A stretch of DNA of 64,000 nt from positions 372,001 to 436,000 of the forward strand of contig NZ_JAHWDQ010000001.1 in assembly GCF_019312595.1 (NCBI RefSeq), written 5' to 3'. The notes beneath the pieces are model-generated. The model made no database searches, was not told the DNA's origin, and saw nothing but the letters and a program-made list of their open reading frames with translations. This DNA comes from Zhongshania aquimaris (GTDB taxonomy: Bacteria; Pseudomonadota; Gammaproteobacteria; Pseudomonadales; Spongiibacteraceae). A program made the translations under genes and the position numbers. Positions 24,688-34,247 of the stretch are shown here, piece by piece; the first letter of the stretch is position 1; each line of letters starts with the position of its first letter.

Positions 24688-25524
24688 TTAAGCAGGTATC
24701 GCATCAGAAGTATAGGACGGAGCGCGAACCTCCACCTTGCGGATTGGCTCCGGCATAAACTTTGACGCGCCGTATACTGCCAAAATACACAAACCGTATG
24801 TTAGGAAAGTCGTCGCCCAAATCAACCCTTGGCTAAACTCCGCCTCCGAAAGATGCAAAGAAATGATTATCGGCGCACCAAGACCGCCGTTTGCACCCAT
24901 CATGGTTATGGGAAATATGACAAATAAACCGAGCAAACCTATTGGACTATTTACGCGACGCCAAAATTGCACGGCGAGGACAGTAAATAAGATAACTTGC
25001 GTGCCTTCTAAAACACCAATAACCAATGGATAGTTCCAAATACGCATCACATAGGGGCCGTAATAGGTATACACACCCGTACCGGTACCCACCATCTCAA
25101 AAATACAAGAAACGGTAATTTCAGCCAACCAAATCAAGAACAGTGTCGGTGTAGAAATTCTTCCCTCATAGAGTGCGCGACCTGCATAAAGACATGCAGA
25201 AGAATAGAGAATCATATAACCGCTATGCGTCCAGTTGGGTTGCACAATACCGAAAGCGGTAAAATGAGACCACATAGCGCCAGCAACGCCATTGGACACA
25301 TCGTAAAACCAAAGATCAAACGCTACGTCATAAAGCGGTTCTATATAGGCGCCAACACCTGCGGCTAATACTGCAAAAACATAAAAAGGGGTTTTCTGTT
25401 TCAAACCCATACGAAGGGCAATCAAAAGCATAATGATAACTATGCCCCAGCTTGCCCACGTGAAAACACTTTGCCACATGAGATCTAGCTCACCGGCCAT
25501 AACCTCTGCAGGTACTAAATTCAT
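24688..25524 (-). CDS. Unrecognised multi-pass inner-membrane protein
   Basis: This 278-aa protein has about seven hydrophobic segments starting at residue 20. Polar motifs within the membrane part include EPLYDVAFDLWFY, the glycine-rich CIFEMVGTGTGVYTYYG and a GANGGLG loop. The start at 25524 (MNLVPAEVM) is set by an AGGAG 8 bp upstream. It follows the PF10118 gene by 75 bp on the same strand, so the two are probably co-transcribed. A distant resemblance to AveC-like spirocyclase membrane proteins (acidic residue before a GxYTY motif) is conceivable but unproven. No function is assigned. Confidence 0.7.
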   Translation of the reverse strand: MNLVPAEVMAGELDLMWQSVFTWASWGIVIIMLLIALRMGLKQKTPFYVFAVLAAGVGAYIEPLYDVAFDLWFYDVSNGVAGAMWSHFTAFGIVQPNWTHSGYMILYSSACLYAGRALYEGRISTPTLFLIWLAEITVSCIFEMVGTGTGVYTYYGPYVMRIWNYPLVIGVLEGTQVILFTVLAVQFWRRVNSPIGLLGLFVIFPITMMGANGGLGAPIIISLHLSEAEFSQGLIWATTFLTYGLCILAVYGASKFMPEPIRKVEVRAPSYTSDAIPA

Positions 25525-25599
25525 TATTATTACTCCTAACAAATCGCCACTTACCACTATTGCAACAAGTGACGGTACTTAGCGTTAACCTCTTTAAAC

Positions 25600-26472
25600 T
25601 CAAGCAGGAATAGTTTCTCTTGCCCGTGCAGCCATTTTATTCAGATCTAAGGTTTCAGAGGCAATGGTTAGTACTTCTTCGCAGCCTGGTGGCGCATTCA
25701 AATTTTTAGGATTGTACCAGGGTGAACAGGCCCGCAAAATTCTCGGCGCAATAAAGAAAAACATACTAGAGTACGAACTTACTTTGCGAAGAAATGCCTT
25801 GGGACCGCGCTCCATACGTCCGGCCTTCTTATCTTCATTCTGCATGTATTCACTTAATGGAAAAGCAAACCCGATCAAGTGGAAGGTTGCTTTGAATATT
25901 CCGCGCACTCGCCCCCAATAGGTTCCATACAGCGCTTCAACAACATTGAACGCACAGCAGCGATGTTCGAATTCTTCAGAAAGATGCCAGCGCCAGAGTG
26001 ATAAGGTAATCATATCCACGTCATTATCCTTAACACGCTTGTTTGCCTGAACAAGGAAATAGCTCGCGAATATTGGTCCTGCCGTTTCAAACCCTTCTGC
26101 ATAAAGCATGGCGTAACGCAGACCGAATTTTTTATCAAATTCTTCATATTCTGCGCGAAGTTTGTCCGTGTGCTTATCCATTTCAGGATAGTGGCCCAAA
26201 CCTCGCACCATTTCGTTAAAAGCCATATGGGTTTTTGAATGATTGGCTTCCTGCTTACAAAACAATTCGCAGTCTGCATAAAGATCGTCCCTGTCTTCTG
26301 GCAGCAGCTTTTTTGCCTTAGCCAAAGCGCGAATTAAATATCCTTCTAATAGCGGCAAGCCAATACTCACGGCGTTCCAAAATTGAGCTAACTCCGGATC
26401 TTTTGGTATCCAATCGACTCTCGCCTGTGAAAAATCACACTCGATTTTACGAGCTTCAGGTTTGATATTCAT
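25600..26472 (-). CDS. PF10118-type predicted metal-dependent protein with di-iron ligand pattern
   Basis: This 290-aa protein resembles the family labelled predicted metal-dependent hydrolase (PF10118). It is mostly helical. Candidate metal ligands are E43, E75-x2-H78 (KQEANH), E126 or E129 (AEGFET), and H163-x3-E167-x2-H170 (WHLSEEFEH). That is the E / ExxH / E / HxxxExxH order of ferritin-like di-iron oxygenases such as AurF, so an oxygenase role is at least as likely as hydrolysis (inference). It heads an operon with the membrane protein at 24688-25524. A palindromic operator-like site lies 114 bp upstream of its start. Confidence 0.7.
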   Translation of the reverse strand: MNIKPEARKIECDFSQARVDWIPKDPELAQFWNAVSIGLPLLEGYLIRALAKAKKLLPEDRDDLYADCELFCKQEANHSKTHMAFNEMVRGLGHYPEMDKHTDKLRAEYEEFDKKFGLRYAMLYAEGFETAGPIFASYFLVQANKRVKDNDVDMITLSLWRWHLSEEFEHRCCAFNVVEALYGTYWGRVRGIFKATFHLIGFAFPLSEYMQNEDKKAGRMERGPKAFLRKVSSYSSMFFFIAPRILRACSPWYNPKNLNAPPGCEEVLTIASETLDLNKMAARARETIPA

Positions 26473-26585: not shown

Positions 26586-26605
26586 TATTGACCTTAAGAT
26601 CAATA
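26586..26605. promoter_or_regulatory. Operator-like palindrome, site A (PF10118 operon)
   Basis: TATTGA-ccttaaga-TCAATA; with two flanking bases on each side, 22 of 24 positions are palindromic. The same half-sites and 8-bp spacing recur at 27501-27520, 30974-30993 and (one mismatch) 31140-31159. It lies upstream of the PF10118 gene, about 65 bp beyond a TTGACA box that may be its -35. Confidence 0.7.
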
Positions 26606-26668
26606 TAAGTTGGCGATACAACAATTGCACGGAGATTTATCCACCCTCCACAAGTCAATCAATCGCGC

Positions 26669-26693
26669 AAAAAAAGCCCGGCAAAAGCCGGGC
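26669..26693 (-). terminator. Intrinsic terminator of the SnoaL-like gene
   Basis: A 7-bp stem (gcccggc-aaaa-gccgggc) is followed on the minus strand by seven T. It lies 27 bp past the stop of the gene at 26720-27466, so that gene is a single transcription unit. Confidence 0.88.
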
Positions 26694-26719
26694 AAATCAC
26701 TCTTGGAGCACCTAGATAA

Positions 26720-27466
26720 TTACTTTTTTAGCCAGAATTTATTTGGCTCAGGAACCACACCTAATTGCACTGCGACACCTCGGAAATTCCAGTAGGTAAA
26801 CTCTCGAACAACCTTGCGATCTTTGTAACAATGAAAAGTCATTCCACGCGTGTGTGTTGTTTTACCTGTGGCCGGCAAGCCAAGAAAATCGACATAGTGT
26901 TCAGATTTCCAAATCCACTGCATCACTCCCCACTCGTCATAGGAATGATCAGCACCTTCCATGGTGTCCTTTGTCCACATATCCCATTCGGCGGCCTGAT
27001 ACTGTGGCGGGCGCTCTAAACGCAGTTGCGACGTTCTATCACCGGCTAAACCGCCGTCGTAGCGAATAACATCAAAATAATGCTTACCTACATTGGACTC
27101 TTTATTAAAAGGCAAAAAGGCGTTATACAATTCTTCTTTATCCGTAATGGTTTGGAAAAGTGTAATATCTTCAAAAACAAAGTCATCTGCGTAGTAATGA
27201 ATTATGCCAGCGGCACCTTCATTGAAAAACGTATCTATCCAATCCTCACCACTAGACATGCCCATACGGCCAGTCCCTTTAAATCCCTTGGCGGCCTGCT
27301 CTGCCTCAGCCGCAGAGGACATACCAAACGCGACAGATGGTGCTACACCACCTACCATAATTGCCGCACCCGCCTTTTTTAAAAAAGAACGCCGACCGGC
27401 TTCTTTTTTTAATTTTTCTTGTTGCGCCGCTAACTCGCGCCCCTCTTCCAAATACCCAAGATGCAT
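26720..27466 (-). CDS. Tat-exported SnoaL/NTF2-like protein
   Basis: This 248-aa protein has a twin-arginine signal (RRSFLKK at residues 25-31 followed by an Ala/Gly-rich hydrophobic stretch) after an unusually long 24-residue N-region. The mature part looks like the NTF2-like/SnoaL fold: a short helix, YADDFVFEDIT, then beta strands with W and H residues (WKSEHYVDF, THTRGMTFHCY, FTYWNFRGVAVQLG). SnoaL-like proteins range from cyclases and isomerases to non-catalytic binders; the substrate is unknown. An AGAGG ribosome site precedes the ATG. A TATTGA-N8-TCAATA site overlaps its likely -35 region. Confidence 0.72.
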   Translation of the reverse strand: MHLGYLEEGRELAAQQEKLKKEAGRRSFLKKAGAAIMVGGVAPSVAFGMSSAAEAEQAAKGFKGTGRMGMSSGEDWIDTFFNEGAAGIIHYYADDFVFEDITLFQTITDKEELYNAFLPFNKESNVGKHYFDVIRYDGGLAGDRTSQLRLERPPQYQAAEWDMWTKDTMEGADHSYDEWGVMQWIWKSEHYVDFLGLPATGKTTHTRGMTFHCYKDRKVVREFTYWNFRGVAVQLGVVPEPNKFWLKK

Positions 27467-27500
27467 GTTTCCGACCTCTATTTATACTATGTAGTTATAT

Positions 27501-27520
27501 TATTGACTTAAAGATCAATA
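27501..27520. promoter_or_regulatory. Operator-like palindrome, site B (SnoaL-like gene)
   Basis: TATTGA-cttaaaga-TCAATA, centred 45 bp upstream of the ATG at 27466. On the minus strand a TTTAAG-N17-TAGTAT promoter can be read, with its -35 inside the palindrome; this placement suits a repressor. Confidence 0.7.
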
Positions 27521-27743
27521 AATATACTCTCCCATTATCAAACCCCTGTCAATTACAAACTTCCACACTGCCCAAAATATCCGAGAAACCACATTCTTAG
27601 ACGTAATGATCGGAATATCTGCGCAATAATTCTGATCGACACAGGCTGAACGGATATTGAAAATCAGGATGAAATCGAAGACACAGAATTAAAAACACCT
27701 GCGTAAAAATACTCTTATAGCTACAGGATAATTTTACAAACAT

Positions 27744-27775
27744 AAAAAAAGGCGACAAGTAGAACTTGACGCCTT
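27744..27775 (-). terminator. Intrinsic terminator after the Gly-rich secreted protein gene
   Basis: Arms aaggcgacaagt (27749-27760) and acttgacgcctt (27764-27775) pair at 11 of 12 positions with a 3-nt loop. Seven A at 27744-27750 give the minus-strand T tract. It ends the TonB receptor-Gly-rich protein unit. Confidence 0.85.
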
Positions 27776-27793
27776 ACATATAAAATTAATTTA

Positions 27794-28429
27794 TTACATG
27801 GAGAATGGCTGGGTCAAAAATGGCACGCCAGGGAATGCAGAATTACCATTAGTACCGTCGAGGGCAGGTGTTAATATCGTCCCACCACCAAGAAGAAAAT
27901 CAAATACACCAGCGGGGTTTTCCATCAACACAGCAAGTATAGGTGCCGCGCCGACACCAGCATTCACACCAAGCTCATTCACAGTCGAAAAGACCGCTTC
28001 CGGCTCGCCAGCAGCGCCAAAGATAATATTAGTCACGATAGCCTGACCGCCTGCAAGTTGCATTAACTGCGTCTGATCGGGAAGTAAGCGCGGAAGAAAA
28101 TCACCGTCAACAATAAACGCTAAACCGCCGCCAATACCAGGAATGCTATCAAATCCGCCGGCACCGCCGCCCATTTCAGGTAGACCCGGTAAAGCGTCTA
28201 AAGATGGCAAACCAGCCATCCCGCCCATTCCAGCCAAATCAGTTGGAATAGGCAAAGAGTCTAATGAAGGAAGACCACCCGCCCCGCCTGCTAATGGCAG
28301 CGCGGACAAGCCACCCAAACCACCGCCAAGGCTGGTTAGAGCAGAAAGATCAGGAAGCTGCGCATGACTTGGACTTGCGCCAAGTACCACCAAACTAGCT
28401 ACTGCCAACGTGCTTTTAACTAATTTCAT
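27794..28429 (-). CDS. Secreted Gly/Leu/Pro-rich protein of unknown function
   Basis: This 211-aa protein has a clear signal peptide (MKLVKSTLAVASLVVLGASPSHA, cleavage after A23). About residues 24-100 are low-complexity, built from recurring LPSLDxLP and GGxGGL units (SLDSLPIP, SLDALPGL, FDSIPGIG). The C-terminal half is more ordered (LPRLLPDQTQLMQLAGGQAIV, then a hydrophobic end). No known domain was recognised. It follows the TonB receptor by 103 bp with no terminator between, so the two likely share a transcript. A periplasmic or surface binding role linked to the receptor is conceivable. AGGAG lies at the start. Confidence 0.65.
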   Translation of the reverse strand: MKLVKSTLAVASLVVLGASPSHAQLPDLSALTSLGGGLGGLSALPLAGGAGGLPSLDSLPIPTDLAGMGGMAGLPSLDALPGLPEMGGGAGGFDSIPGIGGGLAFIVDGDFLPRLLPDQTQLMQLAGGQAIVTNIIFGAAGEPEAVFSTVNELGVNAGVGAAPILAVLMENPAGVFDFLLGGGTILTPALDGTNGNSAFPGVPFLTQPFSM

Positions 28430-28532
28430 ATTATTCTCCGGAATTGATTTTCGACACCATCATATTTCTTTTAGCAGTTGTGAGATGTGAAACAACCCAC
28501 AACCTAACGACATACTTAAGCCTTGCCAACAA

Positions 28533-30827
28533 TCAGTATTTGTACTCAATGCCAACACCGTACATACGTGGTGCCGCATATGATTCACCCACACCAAAGT
28601 CCTGACGGAATTTCTGCAAGTGGCTAACTTCGTTGTTCAAGTTCTTGCCCCAGGCATAAAGCTTAAGATTGGTTTCAGGATCATACAAACTAGCGCGCGC
28701 ATTGGTTTTGGTGTATTCCTCTTCTTCTACATTGTTGTTCGGGTTAAACCAAAAACCAGAGTTATAATAAGCACCTGCGCCAATTTCTGCTTCAAATCTA
28801 GATATAGTAAATGAATACGAGATATCAAGTGTGCCGGAAAAATCGGGAGTACGGATAGTGTCTTTGCCAGAGCAATCAAAGGTCCGCTGCAAACCGGTTT
28901 CTGGATCAAAACCAGTGCACTCGAACTCATCGTACTCACCGTCCAACCACGTACCTGCAAACGTTAATCGCAAACCATCGACTAATCCCGAGTAGGTAAT
29001 CTCTGCTTCAGCGCCCTCTACTGTGTACTCAGAGGCATTCTCTAGACGAGTTACACCACCACTCGCTAAAGACAAGATTTGCGAGTGACCGTTTTCAATC
29101 GTCGTGCTAAACACGGCAAAGTTGGTGCGCAAATCACCATCGAACCAGTCAGCTTTCAAGCCAATTTCATGTGACTCTGCCTCTTCTGGCTCAATCGCTT
29201 CTGGCGCCGCGTTGATATTCAAAGCGTTGTAGTTACCAGATTTAAAGCCCGTTGAGTAACTGTAGTAAAGCATTGAGGTATCGTTGTAACGCCAATCTAC
29301 ACCAGCGCTTGGATTAAAATCATCCCAAGATCTTTCCTCGGCAGGATAATCAAAAACTCGGATAAAATCAGTAGCGCCTATCAAGGGCAGCCCCTGCGCC
29401 CGCGCATCTACATAAGATTCTGTAATTTCGCGAGTTTCATCTGAGTAACGACCACCAATACGCGCCGAAATTGTCTCTGTAATATCAAATGTAAACTCAG
29501 CAAACGCTGCAAATGCATCGGTTTGAACGCCGCCATACAACACAGCGTTGATATTTTCTGTATCAGACAAGCCAAATGCGCCAAGCCCCAAAGCACCGAC
29601 TAGATCGTTTAATGCCCCCAGATCCGTGCCGACAAGACCGCTCGCTACTGCCACTGCGTCAATATAGATAGGAGTACGCTGGTCTTTAAACGTATCCTCG
29701 ACATAGATACCGCCAACCCATGAGAACCAATCTGGGCCCCACTCCGAAGAGTTGAAAACAATCTCTAGAGAATCCGTGTCCGCCGTATTGGGAACCGCCT
29801 CAATGATCAGCACTTTCTCTTGTGACAAATCGTAATCCCAGAAGATATTACTGAAGAACTCAGTGTGACCGAACAGGATTTTGGTGTTCACGTACTCAGA
29901 TAAAATATCGAAAGATATTTGACTAGAGACGGACTCCATCTCGGTGAATACTTCTGTACCCACACCAGTCTCAAAAGGCGTATCGTTCTCAGTTAGCACA
30001 GCTTCAAAAGCAGGACTAACGTCGGAATTTGTTAAAGGCACACCATCGGCAGATGAATGGCGAATTTTATAGTGGCTGGCATTCACTTCAAGCCAGTCAG
30101 ACGGCGCCCAACGTGCAGCGACTTTATAGCCGCGATCATCGTAATCTATATGCTTTTGGCTGGGATCTGGCGTGTAGGTCAGGTAGGTTTCACGATTTGT
30201 GTACATGCCCGACAAACCGAAAGCAAATTTATCGCCAACAGGACCAGACACATGGGCCCTGCCCTTCAATAAATTATAATTACCCCCTTCAGCAGCGAGA
30301 ACAACTTCCGGCTCTTGAAAAGATGGCTTTTTAGTTTCGACAACGATGGCACCGCCAACAGCGTTACGCCCATAGAGTGTACCCTGGGGCCCTTTCAGTA
30401 CGTTCACGGATTCAACCACACCCAATGACTGCGCTTGGCTTGATGTATATGTAATGTACAGACCATCCATATAGGTAGCAACACTGGAATCAATTGGCCC
30501 CTGGAAGGAGTCAGACCCGATACCGCGCAGGAAGATCAAGCTGTAGCTGGCCATCTCGGTAACAATTAGACCGGGCGTGACGTTCTGCAGATCTTTGATA
30601 TCAGCAACACCTTGCGAGTTAAGAGCGTCGCCGCTGAACGCTGAGATACTGGTAGAGACATCTTGCGTATCGGCAGACATTTTACGCGCCGATACAACCA
30701 CCTCCTCCAAGGCATTTTTACCATAACTTAATGACGATCCCACTGACACGGCGAGACAAAGGCCAACCGCACTCGCTGTCTTATTTACACCAGAGGACAT
30801 ACCGACGCTCTTCGTTTTTTTTATCAT
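28533..30827 (-). CDS. TonB-dependent outer-membrane receptor
   Basis: This 764-aa receptor has a signal sequence with a long charged N-region (to about residue 36), a TonB-box-like EEVVVSARK at about 41-49, the plug domain (VSTSISAFSGDALNSQG, PGLIVTEM, VLKGPQGTLYGRNAVGGAIVVETKKP) and a beta-barrel ending in an aromatic residue (GVGIEYKY). No FecA-type signalling extension is seen. Its closest-looking relatives are the large group of receptors near catabolic genes in marine and sphingomonad-like bacteria, whose substrates are often hydrophobic organics rather than siderophores (inference). One palindromic operator overlaps its likely -35 and another lies further upstream. Confidence 0.92.
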   Translation of the reverse strand: MIKKTKSVGMSSGVNKTASAVGLCLAVSVGSSLSYGKNALEEVVVSARKMSADTQDVSTSISAFSGDALNSQGVADIKDLQNVTPGLIVTEMASYSLIFLRGIGSDSFQGPIDSSVATYMDGLYITYTSSQAQSLGVVESVNVLKGPQGTLYGRNAVGGAIVVETKKPSFQEPEVVLAAEGGNYNLLKGRAHVSGPVGDKFAFGLSGMYTNRETYLTYTPDPSQKHIDYDDRGYKVAARWAPSDWLEVNASHYKIRHSSADGVPLTNSDVSPAFEAVLTENDTPFETGVGTEVFTEMESVSSQISFDILSEYVNTKILFGHTEFFSNIFWDYDLSQEKVLIIEAVPNTADTDSLEIVFNSSEWGPDWFSWVGGIYVEDTFKDQRTPIYIDAVAVASGLVGTDLGALNDLVGALGLGAFGLSDTENINAVLYGGVQTDAFAAFAEFTFDITETISARIGGRYSDETREITESYVDARAQGLPLIGATDFIRVFDYPAEERSWDDFNPSAGVDWRYNDTSMLYYSYSTGFKSGNYNALNINAAPEAIEPEEAESHEIGLKADWFDGDLRTNFAVFSTTIENGHSQILSLASGGVTRLENASEYTVEGAEAEITYSGLVDGLRLTFAGTWLDGEYDEFECTGFDPETGLQRTFDCSGKDTIRTPDFSGTLDISYSFTISRFEAEIGAGAYYNSGFWFNPNNNVEEEEYTKTNARASLYDPETNLKLYAWGKNLNNEVSHLQKFRQDFGVGESYAAPRMYGVGIEYKY

Positions 30828-30972
30828 TAACTCTTACCCCAATGCAAAAGCCACAAAAATAACGCAGCTGTTTGACGCAATTTTTTATCTTTCGAAAACC
30901 AAGCACTCTCCCGCCTATCCACTCGGGAAACTCGGCTAGGAGACAAGATTCAACCCGAGGTTTAATTTAACA

Positions 30973-30994
30973 CTATTGATTACAGAGTCAATAG
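30973..30994. promoter_or_regulatory. Operator-like palindrome, site C (TonB receptor)
   Basis: CTATTGA-ttacagag-TCAATAG, with seven-base perfect half-sites and the same 8-bp spacer as sites A and B. It lies about 146 bp upstream of the receptor ATG. On the minus strand TTGACT within it could be a -35 box with a weak -10 17 bp on. Confidence 0.7.
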
Positions 30995-31139
30995 CGTTAT
31001 TGCGAAAATAGAGACTCTGATCACAAACCTAATTCGGCAAGAGTCTCGCTGCTATGCCTAAAAATTAAATAAGCCATTGTTTTTATTGAATAAAATTTGG
31101 ATTACCGATTATAGACCACTGAAGCGAAACTTATTATTT

Positions 31140-31159
31140 TATTGACCCACAAATCAACA
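31140..31159. promoter_or_regulatory. Operator-like palindrome, site D (imperfect)
   Basis: TATTGA-cccacaaa-TCAACA, one mismatch from the consensus and the same spacing. A lone TCAATA half-site follows at 31177-31182. It is about 150 bp further upstream of the receptor than site C and could be an auxiliary site. Confidence 0.45.
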
Positions 31160-31211
31160 CCATTATTGCTACTGACTCAATAAGAGATAAAAACCACGCA
31201 TCTTAACTAAG

Positions 31212-31536: not shown

Positions 31537-32376
31537 TCAGCCATCACCCCAACGATAGGAAAGTAGCACGGACGAGATAATCGGGTTCAACTCTAATTTA
31601 CTGCGGCTTTCAGATAAAAGGGCACCATCTTTTGCGGTAATGGCAATATTCGATGTCGTCTCCAACGCCAAATAAGATACAGAAGCAGATAGGCTCCATC
31701 TATCATCCAACTCCATTGCTAGACCAACATTAAATATAGGAGCGATATCAGAGTCTGCCTCGCTATCAATAAATGTTTCGCTCCCGCTTCCGGTCGCCAG
31801 CGCCAACACTGAGCCAAAGTTTTGCTTAAGACTTTGCTCAAAACTCTTATTAAGTTCAATATTGTCAAACCAGGTATACATAACACCGACCCCAATATAC
31901 GGCCGCAAGCGGGCGCTAACATCTCCAAAGCAGTACTGCGCAAGTATTGCTGGGCTCCACTGCCGCACCGTTGCAAGCGGATTGTTCTGCACACCACCAA
32001 GGTCGACACTAAGCAACTCACCTGCCACACCGGTCGGACGCACAAGCCCCTGCCCCGACAATTCAAACTCAGCGGGAACGCCACCCTCCAACTTGATAAC
32101 AAAGTGGTCCGTGAGAAAATACGATAAGGTTAACGCTGGAGTACTGGAGTCATTCACGGATAAAGATGTGCCGGGTGAGCTAAACTCTTGCTCTATTCCG
32201 AGCACACTACCAAGCAAGCTGGGGGCAAGTTTTGTATTAAGCGGCGTACTCGACTCCTGCGGTGAAAGAAAAAACCAGCCGCCCTGAACGACTACGTCAC
32301 CCGCCTTAAGCGCCTGCGCCGTTGGCGCCGCAATAGCAAAACAACACCAGCACCAATTCCGAAGCTTCATTCTCAC
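31537..32376 (-). CDS. OmpW-family outer-membrane protein
   Basis: This 279-aa protein has a signal peptide (about 22 residues, Cys/Trp-rich) and the eight-stranded-barrel motifs of OmpW: AGDVVVQGGWFFLSPQESS at the mature N-terminus, ALTLSYFLTDHFVIKLEGGVP, RPYIGVGVMYTWFD and a C-terminal aromatic-rich strand (SVLLSYRWGDG). It is longer than E. coli OmpW (212 aa) because of extended loops. OmpW/AlkL proteins give small hydrophobic molecules a lateral route through the outer membrane. It is divergent from a LysR-LuxR pair across 590 bp. Confidence 0.85.
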   Translation of the reverse strand: MRMKLRNWCWCCFAIAAPTAQALKAGDVVVQGGWFFLSPQESSTPLNTKLAPSLLGSVLGIEQEFSSPGTSLSVNDSSTPALTLSYFLTDHFVIKLEGGVPAEFELSGQGLVRPTGVAGELLSVDLGGVQNNPLATVRQWSPAILAQYCFGDVSARLRPYIGVGVMYTWFDNIELNKSFEQSLKQNFGSVLALATGSGSETFIDSEADSDIAPIFNVGLAMELDDRWSLSASVSYLALETTSNIAITAKDGALLSESRSKLELNPIISSVLLSYRWGDG

Positions 32377-32966
32377 CCCCGAGCCTCTGCCTAAAGAGCT
32401 GATTGGGCGTCATATTGGCAAAGACTGAATATTTGCGAACCATATTATTCAGACCGCCTACTTAGAAATGGTTTACTGAGACACTAGGATTTTTCATTTT
32501 TCTATCTCTACCCCTACCGGGCGCATCAATCTGACCGAGTCAATGTGACCGAGTCAAACTAACAAAAGGCATACACTGAAGCCTCTCGCAGCAAGGTCTG
32601 CTCAGCACACACCCTGCTGCGCCCGCCAGACACGCAGCATTTGATTTAAATGACTGCTGATCCAATCTGCACTATTGACGATATAAGTATCGCAAACGTG
32701 CTACGTAACGATTGAGATGAAAGAACACACGAGTCGCCGATCGCACATCTTTTAGCGACTCACTATTGCTGGACTTGGCAAAACTGCGCGTTTATCCTGC
32801 TTATCCCCCTTAAACGGGGGGGTGAGGAGAACTAACGGCGCCCTGCGAGATGGCGGCACAAGCATTCCAAAATGATAAAAATCATGGGGTAGAAGTACGA
32901 TTGTTTAATCGTCGATCTTCCAAACTTAAATAGGTCCACGGATAGCAAATCTGAGTTTTTCAGCAA
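32377..32966. other. 590-bp intergenic region between divergent ompW-like and lysR genes
   Basis: It contains a tandem 12-bp direct repeat (tgaccgagtcaa) at 32532-32543 and 32546-32557, a 14-bp period close to 1.3 helical turns, and a C5/G5 hairpin at 32805-32820 without a T tract. No coding frame was recognised. The repeat may be a regulator site for either gene. Confidence 0.5.
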
Positions 32967-33875
32967 ATGAGTAATCAACACCTTCCCTCCCTGAATTTGA
33001 TTCGTGTTTTCGAAGTGGCGGCTCGTCGTATGAGCTTCAAAGACGCGGCGGACGAGCTCTTTGTGTCGCCGCCCGCGGTCAGTCATCAAATTAGAGCTCT
33101 TGAAGAAAACCTTGGCGTTACGTTGTTCAAACGGGCAAACCGGAAAATCACGCTGACTCCTGAAGGCAAACGCTACTACCTGCACATTAAACGCGGACTT
33201 GACTTAATTCACACCGCGACCTTGGCTGTGCGCAAAGAGAAAAAGCAACGGCGCTTCGTGATTAATACCCTCCCCAATATTGCGAGCCTACTGCTATTTC
33301 CCAATATCCATGAATTCCAAGCAGAACACCCTGAATTAAACATTCAGATTGATTCCGACGTATCGAGAATCGATTTAGAGAATTCTGAAACCAATGTAGC
33401 CATTCGTCACGAATGTGGTAATGAGCCCGAGCTGACCTATCATCCATTAGTGCAAATTGCCCTCACGCCAATCTGCAGCCGCAGCTACCTTGAGCAACAC
33501 CCTAAACTACGCAAAGGTGATTTCCGCAACTGCCGCCTCATCAAAATCTCGGGCGACACGTATCAGTGGCCTCGCTGGCAAACCCAATGGAACCTGCTTC
33601 CAGACACCCAAAATGAACTCGTTGTCAGCACCGTACAAGCCAGTATCGAAGCTGTTAAAAACAATATTGGCGTAGCGATGGGCTACCTCCCCACGGCGCA
33701 CCAATTTATGAATAAAGACGACGACCTTGTGCTTCCTATGCCCGACAAGGTGACTCCCCACGGCGAGTGTTTTCTGACTTACTGCAATAGCAATGCTGAT
33801 GACGAGATCATCAAAGCCTTCTATGACTGGATGGTAAGAATCATCGCCGAAGAATGGAAAGATAAGAAAAACTAA
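32967..33875 (+). CDS. LysR-family transcriptional regulator (GcvA-like)
   Basis: This 302-aa protein has an N-terminal winged HTH at residues 7-66 (SLNLIRVFEVAARRMSFKDAADELFVSPPAVSHQIRALEENLGV has the GcvA/AmpR-group pattern) and a C-terminal effector-binding domain (about 92-295). The inducer is unknown. It is divergent from ompW and followed at 54 bp by a LuxR-type gene, so it may control ompW and itself. Confidence 0.88.
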   Translation: MSNQHLPSLNLIRVFEVAARRMSFKDAADELFVSPPAVSHQIRALEENLGVTLFKRANRKITLTPEGKRYYLHIKRGLDLIHTATLAVRKEKKQRRFVINTLPNIASLLLFPNIHEFQAEHPELNIQIDSDVSRIDLENSETNVAIRHECGNEPELTYHPLVQIALTPICSRSYLEQHPKLRKGDFRNCRLIKISGDTYQWPRWQTQWNLLPDTQNELVVSTVQASIEAVKNNIGVAMGYLPTAHQFMNKDDDLVLPMPDKVTPHGECFLTYCNSNADDEIIKAFYDWMVRIIAEEWKDKKN

Positions 33876-33929
33876 CCCGAAGTGTGGTAACTTTTCATTT
33901 GTCAGCCCCTCGTTTGCGGGGGAAGATAC

Positions 33930-34247
33930 TTGGCAATCGCAAACAGAAAAGTGATCGCCAAAATGCCCTTAGATAGCCACAATCCAATACAGCAACCGCT
34001 TCAAGCCCTCCCGCTCACGCCACGTGAACACGATGTCCTGAGGGAACTCGCGCAGGGTAATAGCAATAAGACAATTGCAAAAACCTTATCCATCAGCACC
34101 TATACGGTTGACGGGTATGTAAAGGACATCTTCAGGAAACTGGGGGTTAGAAATCGCTCGATGGCTGCCGTGGTCGCTTTTCATCACGGTATGCTCGAAA
34201 TGGCGTCTCCGGTAAAACACACCACGCAGGCCCGCGCGAATCTGTAA
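33930..34247 (+). CDS. Stand-alone LuxR-type HTH protein
   Basis: This 105-aa protein has only a LuxR/GerE DNA-binding domain at about residues 28-92 (LPLTPREHDVLRELAQGNSNKTIAKTLSISTYTVDGYVKDIFRKLGVRNR) and no receiver or autoinducer domain. The frame begins at TTG 33930, with a purine-rich GGGGGAAG just upstream; an ATG at 33963 is an alternative that keeps the domain whole. It probably shares a transcript with the LysR gene. Confidence 0.72.
   Translation: MAIANRKVIAKMPLDSHNPIQQPLQALPLTPREHDVLRELAQGNSNKTIAKTLSISTYTVDGYVKDIFRKLGVRNRSMAAVVAFHHGMLEMASPVKHTTQARANL

Follow-up and report, generated by a model that had tools for sequence, protein, structure and literature searches.

What do the genes for a TonB-dependent receptor, a PF10118 protein and a SnoaL-like protein in Zhongshania aquimaris have in common, and which protein reads the palindrome that precedes them? 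The genes lie in a stretch of 64,000 nucleotides (contig NZ_JAHWDQ010000001.1, positions 372,001 to 436,000 of the forward strand), called the window below. A preliminary description had reported four copies of the palindrome TATTGA-N8-TCAATA (N8), and all four were found again, three exact and one with one mismatch. The exact copies are at 26586..26605 (TATTGACCTTAAGATCAATA, preceding the PF10118 gene and a membrane protein gene), 27501..27520 (TATTGACTTAAAGATCAATA, its centre 44 bp upstream of the SnoaL-like gene) and 30974..30993 (TATTGATTACAGAGTCAATA, upstream of the receptor gene, TonB1). The copy with one mismatch, at 31140..31159 (TATTGACCCACAAATCAACA), is the distal, second site of TonB1. 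Three units are preceded by sites, as had been described: PF10118 with the membrane protein, the SnoaL-like gene, and, with two sites, TonB1 with a gene for a Gly-rich protein. In 100 dinucleotide shuffles, 0.21 copies were found on average and two at most.

In the whole genome (G000; 4.25 Mb in 12 contigs) the form TATTGAYN6RTCAATA has five exact matches, and the reversed control none; with up to one mismatch the numbers are 15 and 1. Seven of the 15 are in two loci, the window and C5:461554-467433 (L020 and L021). The sites at the C5 locus are interspersed with genes for an epoxide hydrolase-like protein and an aldehyde dehydrogenase (ALDH), a CoA ligase gene, and the unit SDR1-ECH-TetR-A, which encodes a short-chain dehydrogenase/reductase (SDR), an enoyl-CoA hydratase (ECH) and a TetR-type regulator. 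This unit is divergent from an operon for biotin carboxylase, biotin carboxyl carrier protein (BCCP), carboxyltransferase, acyl-CoA dehydrogenase and a second SDR (SDR2).

The sample for comparison comprised 21 family genomes, 12 with TetR-A and 9 without. Exact N8 sites (Y/R form) numbered 40 in the former and 5 in the latter (hand sums). Three of these five were opened and all are inside open reading frames (ORFs); the other two, in G011, have the same letters as two of the opened ones, one as the reverse complement. At up to one mismatch there were 158 sites in the 12 genomes (13.2 each; control 26) and 61 in the 9 (6.8 each; control 9), again summed by hand; the reversed control flatters the motif, and at this level the contrast is weaker than for exact matches. 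When spacers from N3 to N13 were scanned in 600,053 bases of related loci, N8 gave 36 exact and 55 one-mismatch sites, N7 gave 4 and 28, and the nine other spacings gave no exact and between 1 and 10 one-mismatch sites.

Start codons were taken from a longest-ORF script, and a site was counted as upstream if it lay within 450 bp of an ORF. On this definition N8 was upstream of SnoaL-like (11/11), TonB1 (9/9), PF10118 (8/9), ALDH (8/8), SDR1 (8/8), biotin carboxylase (7/9) and monooxygenase beta subunit (4/5) ORFs, and of 9 of the 304 other ORFs. These counts are biased, since the loci were partly fetched through the motif itself (TonB1 of G008, G015 and G017; PF10118 of G016 and both of G017; the monooxygenase of G012 and G016; ECH-AtuA of G008 and G012). 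The ALDH, SDR1 and carboxylase counts refer to genes accompanying TetR-A loci, and the SnoaL-like count comes from a protein search with 12 hits, 11 of which were examined, including that of the window; a contig-edge copy of G016 was left out. Among the PF10118 ORFs the one lacking a site is in G019, where it follows a Gly-rich gene that is itself preceded by a site; the fifth monooxygenase (G006) was called as two ORFs, and its sites lie 71 and 102 bp upstream of the first of these.

Alignment of the upstream regions showed that the half-sites were kept, whereas the flanks and most of the spacer had diverged (51-62% mean column identity). The PF10118 site (26586) was kept in 7/7 aligned regions and the TonB1 site (30974) in 4/4; at the SnoaL-like site (27501) the half-sites were kept, with one end base changed in G004. 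Position 7 was C or T in 94% of 81 sites, as counted by a script that did not select on Y in loci some of which had been fetched by a pattern that did. Counterparts of both own-genome loci lie within one stretch of less than 50 kb in G004 and G019. Both comparisons that could have gone against the preliminary description came out in its favour: the motif exceeds random frequency, and it is kept upstream of orthologues. The motif, its fixed spacing, its conservation and the genes downstream are direct readings of the sequences, and the window sites are almost certainly operators of one regulon that has been kept in part of the genus Zhongshania.

The regulon is broader than seen in the window. 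N8 precedes a soluble di-iron monooxygenase in five relatives (G006, G012, G016, G017 and G019); the ORFs in G006 are a two-part Phenol_Hydrox beta subunit, MmoB/DmpM, an alpha subunit and a reductase, and the best PDB match of the G012 alpha subunit is soluble methane monooxygenase (sMMO; 1.4e-72). The N8 sites seen in the own genome include none at a soluble di-iron monooxygenase gene. Further genes preceded by N8 encode a glycerol-3-phosphate acyltransferase-like protein and second SnoaL-like proteins.

Some further sites and genes were observed beside these. A second TonB receptor ORF is preceded, at a distance of about 150 bp, by an exact N8 (L114:6354-6373 in G006; L107:2192-2211 in G016), and this receptor is likely a further member of the regulon in both genomes. 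Exact N8 sites at L109:6613-6632 (G016) and L115:6238-6257 (G012) lie between an SDR and a 353-amino-acid ORF in matching gene order. Genes for COX3-like membrane proteins (L088:1841-3219 and L110:12357-13744, both of G015; L249:7291-7887 of G018) occur near N8 sites and near TonB1 or the gene of a second TetR protein, TetR-B, discussed below; G015 adds a second small membrane protein. In G007 (L085, L086 and L087) the regulon is decaying: only residues 7-61 of PF10118 are left, ECH is in separated pieces, the CoA ligase is in two frames and TonB2 is a C-terminal piece only, and the N8 sites are nonetheless retained. In the own genome an exact N8 at G000:C6:155193-155212 (L022:7194-7213), far from the regulon loci, lies between ORFs that by eye resemble DJ-1/PfpI and RDD membrane proteins; it is either a chance match or an extra member. 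A one-mismatch site at G000:C1:14326-14345 (L026:5827-5846; TAATGATTATGCTGTCAATA) overlaps the start of a metallo-hydrolase-like ORF and has near-identical letters in G004, G006, G007 and G008. At G000:C8:14732-14751 (L023:6733-6752) and L106:6644-6663 (G016), matching ORFs of about 180 amino acids have an N8-type site close to their 5' end; these sites would be genuine if the true start lies further in.

A sister palindrome, TATTGAGYNNNRCTCAATW (N7), is one base shorter than N8. By hand count 28 of 34 N7 sites (up to one mismatch, G013 included) are at the SDR1-carboxylase (22), ECH-AtuA (4) or TetR-A (2; G013 and G015) promoter; three others are beside distal TonB1 N8 sites, two at second SnoaL-like genes and one elsewhere. 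The exact form ATTGAGYN3RCTCAAT occurs genome-wide at 17 sites in 8 of the 21 genomes, all with TetR-A (reversed control 1). Three of these are in the own genome: the carboxylase promoter has two, and the third lies 129 bp upstream of ECH-AtuA. The centres of N8 and N7 are 26.5 bp apart at SDR1-carboxylase in G000, G006, G008, G012, G016 and G017, and 23.5 bp apart at TonB1 in G000 and G008. In the window this latter arrangement is formed by the distal N8 site and an adjoining degenerate N7 palindrome at 31164..31182 (TATTGCTACTGACTCAATA); a degenerate N7 accompanies the distal N8 also in G008 (2057 of L084) and G017 (9187 of L102). N7 is a second operator, chiefly at the acyl-CoA carboxylase/AtuA-type pathway, and marks a linked second regulon. 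In TetR-A relatives outside the genus (G188 and G271, about 3.7 kb each) neither palindrome was found at the thresholds used.

Two TetR proteins are candidates for reading these operators. TetR-A (G000:C5, L020:12839-13519) and TetR-B (210 amino acids; G000:C6:228181-228810, minus strand) score 52.4 and 40.9 bits, respectively, against the TetR_N domain PF00440 (cut-off 24). TetR-A was at first taken to be the N8 regulator, and this was changed after the spacing profile and G013. In the latter genome TetR-A is present and TetR-B absent, N8 is missing even when one mismatch is allowed, and both promoters of the TetR-A cluster carry one-mismatch N7-type palindromes. Because G013 pairs TetR-A with N7 alone in the absence of TetR-B, TetR-A is most likely the reader of N7. 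Ten of the 21 genomes encode TetR-B, and exact N8 sites are present in 9 of these 10. In G015 the genes for TetR-B and TonB1 are divergent, with two N8 sites between them; in G004, G018 and G019 the distance to TonB1 is about 4 kb or less, and in G017 TetR-B lies about 6 kb from PF10118. The preliminary description had proposed, from the even symmetry, a dimer of TetR or MarR type, with the regulator encoded outside the window, and the candidates found are consistent with this. The N8 regulator is very probably of TetR type, and co-occurrence and neighbourhood somewhat favour TetR-B in particular. Outside the genus TetR-A was found in two (E 1e-55) and TetR-B in none (E 1e-40) of 390 sampled genomes of the order. 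A profile search of named genomes' contigs with the TetR-A alignment returned 78 loci, of which seven were close, all from Zhongshania or Spongiibacter thalassae, the rest being distant TetR proteins.

In the proposed mechanism a TetR-type homodimer would bind TATTGAYN6RTCAATA at or near promoters and most likely keep the genes silent until binding of a hydrophobic ligand takes it off the DNA. Targets of N8 would be, in the window, the PF10118-membrane protein unit, the SnoaL-like gene and the TonB1-Gly-rich unit, and, at C5, the ALDH-epoxide hydrolase-like unit, the CoA ligase gene and the divergent SDR1-ECH-TetR-A and biotin carboxylase-BCCP-carboxyltransferase-acyl-CoA dehydrogenase-SDR2 units, both of which also have N7. 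The N8 set would provide uptake, oxidation to the acid and CoA activation; the N7 set, under additional control by N8, would carboxylate a branched acyl-CoA and break it down. Repression is the probable sign of control, as the overlap with -35 boxes at TonB1 and PF10118 would fit promoter blocking. At these two genes it is the gene-distal half of the palindrome that overlaps a promoter-like -35; TTGACT-16-TAAATT fits the TonB1 promoter and TTGACT-17-TATATT fits PF10118 of G004 and G017. At the SnoaL-like gene of the own genome no good -10 was found downstream of the site. The overlap, which the preliminary description had already pointed out, is plausible at TonB1 and PF10118, and as evidence it is weak, promoter-like matches being at chance level.

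Several observations weigh against this account. Promoter-like matches in the region number 10, compared with 8.3 in shuffles. Eight of the 15 own-genome N8 matches are outside the two loci, either between ORFs (C6:155193, C1:1873944 and C6:297887) or within them (C1:1850003, C7:248149 and C8:14732), or, at C1:14326, across an ORF start, and over the match at C6:93469 no ORF of 90 amino acids was called in 3 kb. TetR-B of the own genome is unlinked, with no N8 in its 16-kb surroundings. A TetR gene with a site in its own promoter, which had been suggested as a lead to the regulator, was found in part: 2 of 11 TetR-B ORFs have N8 upstream and the rest have none. G007 has N8 sites, and TetR-B was detected there neither intact nor as a relic; these sites may themselves be relics, as several regulon genes are broken in this genome. 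Finally, the presence of TetR-A fits the distribution of N8 about as well as that of TetR-B. Intergenic exact N8 was found in 10/12 genomes with TetR-A vs 0/9 without it, and in 9/10 with TetR-B vs 1/11 without it (Fisher tests, relatedness ignored).

The last comparison bears on the idea that TetR-A binds both N8 and N7 in a single regulon. Each of the 10 genomes that have intergenic exact N8, among them G007, encodes TetR-A, and the operon to which TetR-A belongs has N8 upstream in 8/8 SDR1 cases. However, one dimer would need to accept two spacings, and G013 and G018 have TetR-A but no exact Y/R-type N8, G013 having only N7. The helix-turn-helix region of the G013 TetR-A is much like the others, which makes a changed reading head a poor explanation for the missing N8, and we consider a single regulon under TetR-A unlikely. 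It is also doubtful that another dimeric regulator, of MarR or other TetR type, binds N8: two TetR families were followed across genomes that have 20 to 55 first-look TetR candidates each, but TetR-B and TetR-A are the ones found beside sites in several genomes. An AraC-type gene, located beside ALDH/thiolase in eight relatives, was considered as the binder and rejected, as it was not found in the own C5 locus.

FNR/CRP-type sites, a site for the product of the LysR gene at 32967-33875, or mere inverted -35 boxes are contradicted by spacing and symmetry, and are very improbable. The TTGA and TCAA halves do resemble FNR halves, TTGAC resembles a -35 box and the LysR gene is nearby. FNR and CRP sites, however, have the spacing TTGA-N6-TCAA, and N8 differs from them as the preliminary description had stated: the N6 form gave no exact and 2 one-mismatch sites in the 600 kb, against 36 and 55 for N8. 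The T-N11-A dyad of LysR proteins needs an odd centre, whereas that of N8 is even, and the LysR gene is not among the TonB1 neighbours in G006 and G012 (a 22%-identical LysR is near in G006). Inverted -35 boxes would leave the conserved second half unexplained. That the sites are functionless products of chance or shared ancestry is hardly credible, for although all site-bearing genomes belong to one genus and AT-rich coding matches of the same form occur, the half-sites are kept amid changing flanks and recur at unlinked loci of the same pathway.

The downstream genes give some indication of the substrate, which may be a branched or unsaturated hydrocarbon. The epoxide hydrolase-like, ALDH, CoA ligase, di-iron monooxygenase and acyl-CoA carboxylase members fit a hydrophobic substrate, and the N7 set would suit the degradation of a methyl-branched acyl-CoA. 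Overall, the carboxyltransferase is nearest to methylcrotonyl-CoA carboxylase (MCC; 3e-186, vs 6.6e-137 for geranyl-CoA carboxylase, GCC). In GCC beta the position of Phe191 of MCC is taken by Gly, and a 3-residue insertion in front of it is absent (PMC4673880). In 9/9 orthologues read (G013 left out), which align with MCC here without a gap, this place is occupied by Ala, preceded by Phe or Tyr, and not by the Phe of MCC. Assignment of the C5 enzyme as a GCC was rejected, as Ala in all nine fails the Gly/Phe rule. It is possible that the carboxylase acts on a substrate larger than 3-methylcrotonyl-CoA; the preceding Phe or Tyr might fill the pocket. As a tentative reading, with the odds somewhat against it, we suggest a spacing code: two TetR regulators would share the TATTGA half-site, be distinguished by the 8- or 7-base spacer, and meet in composite sites of fixed distance. 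TetR-B, through N8, would then govern how an isoprenoid-like or unsaturated hydrocarbon is taken up and oxidized, with the help in some species of an sMMO-like monooxygenase. TetR-A, through N7, would govern a pathway resembling atu, the carboxylase of which is unusual in having Ala in place of Phe191 on an MCC scaffold.

All regulon genes of the window are on the minus strand. The PF10118 protein (25600..26472) belongs to its family by a score of 145.8 bits (curated cut-off 33.2). Ferritin-like di-metal carboxylate proteins have the ligands E, ExxH, E and ExxH on a four-helix bundle. In the PF10118 protein E43, E75xxH78, E126/E129 and E167xxH170 are invariant in 8/8 rows, and it is probably a di-metal four-helix-bundle protein; the fold match is of low confidence. 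The membrane protein gene behind it (24688..25557) has no Pfam or NCBIfam match, and for this reason an initial label, AveC, was dropped. The product of the SnoaL-like gene (26720..27466) has, by eye, the twin-arginine motif RRSFLKK; its matches are below the curated cut-offs (PF07366, 22.8 of 28.4 bits; TIGR02096, 68.4 of 97.1 bits), and "SnoaL-like" is used as a label of likeness only. TonB1 (28533..30827) matches PF00593 and PF07715 over cut-off, and the Gly-rich, secreted-type protein encoded behind it (27794..28429) has no Pfam match. Beside the regulon, at 31537-34247, there are an OmpW-family gene, a GcvA-like LysR gene and a gene for a 105-amino-acid LuxR-type helix-turn-helix protein; the OmpW and LysR genes have no N8 site within 450 bp upstream.

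Among known systems the closest are the AtuR/atu regulon of Pseudomonas for acyclic terpene utilization and RdmA/dmg of P. nitroreducens, in which a TetR protein is encoded beside, and controls, genes for AtuA, enoyl-CoA hydratase, acyl-CoA dehydrogenase, SDR and a biotin-dependent carboxylase. TetR-A and the N7 set have the same make-up, and the own genome has AtuA-family genes (PF07287, 526.9 and 523.6 bits), one of them behind an exact N7 site. The N8 set (TonB1, PF10118, SnoaL-like and monooxygenase genes) is not known to be part of atu, and the carboxylase here is nearer to MCC than to GCC. The operators of AtuR and RdmA are given in PMC9973270 as AGCAAGCGCTTGG and CCAAGCGCTTGCT. The N8 and N7 consensus sequences are unlike these, as judged by comparing consensus sequences, the window not having been scanned for an AtuR site. 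The best NCBIfam match of TetR-A, which has a TetR_C_4 domain, is the YsiA-type TetR protein FadR of Bacillus (NF053878, E 8.4e-30), but with 104 bits against a cut-off of 200 it is not a member by the curated rule. The site of RutR of E. coli, TTGACCANNTGGTCAA, has the same TTGA-N8-TCAA frame as the palindrome described here. RutR controls other genes; it is described as a dimer of TetR type that acts on about 16 bp of palindromic DNA (PMC10891134). The monooxygenase that follows N8 in relatives shares two Phenol_Hydrox subunits, MmoB/DmpM and a reductase with soluble methane/alkene-type di-iron monooxygenases.

Zhongshania rises in cold-seawater crude-oil microcosms, and Z. aliphaticivorans is cited in the same report as degrading aliphatic hydrocarbons (PMC8478444). 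A literature search, with most subscription journals outside its reach, returned no report of the motif, nor of an operator or regulator for Zhongshania hydrocarbon genes. We regard the system as a new regulon of the TetR-controlled catabolic type, closest to that of AtuR, the split between N7 and N8 being its unusual part. The motif yields a list of genes, comprising the TonB receptor, PF10118, the membrane protein, the SnoaL-like protein and, in relatives, the di-iron monooxygenase, whose products would act on a single substrate class. N7 and N8 together would offer a compact natural example of two related regulons kept apart by the spacing of their operators.

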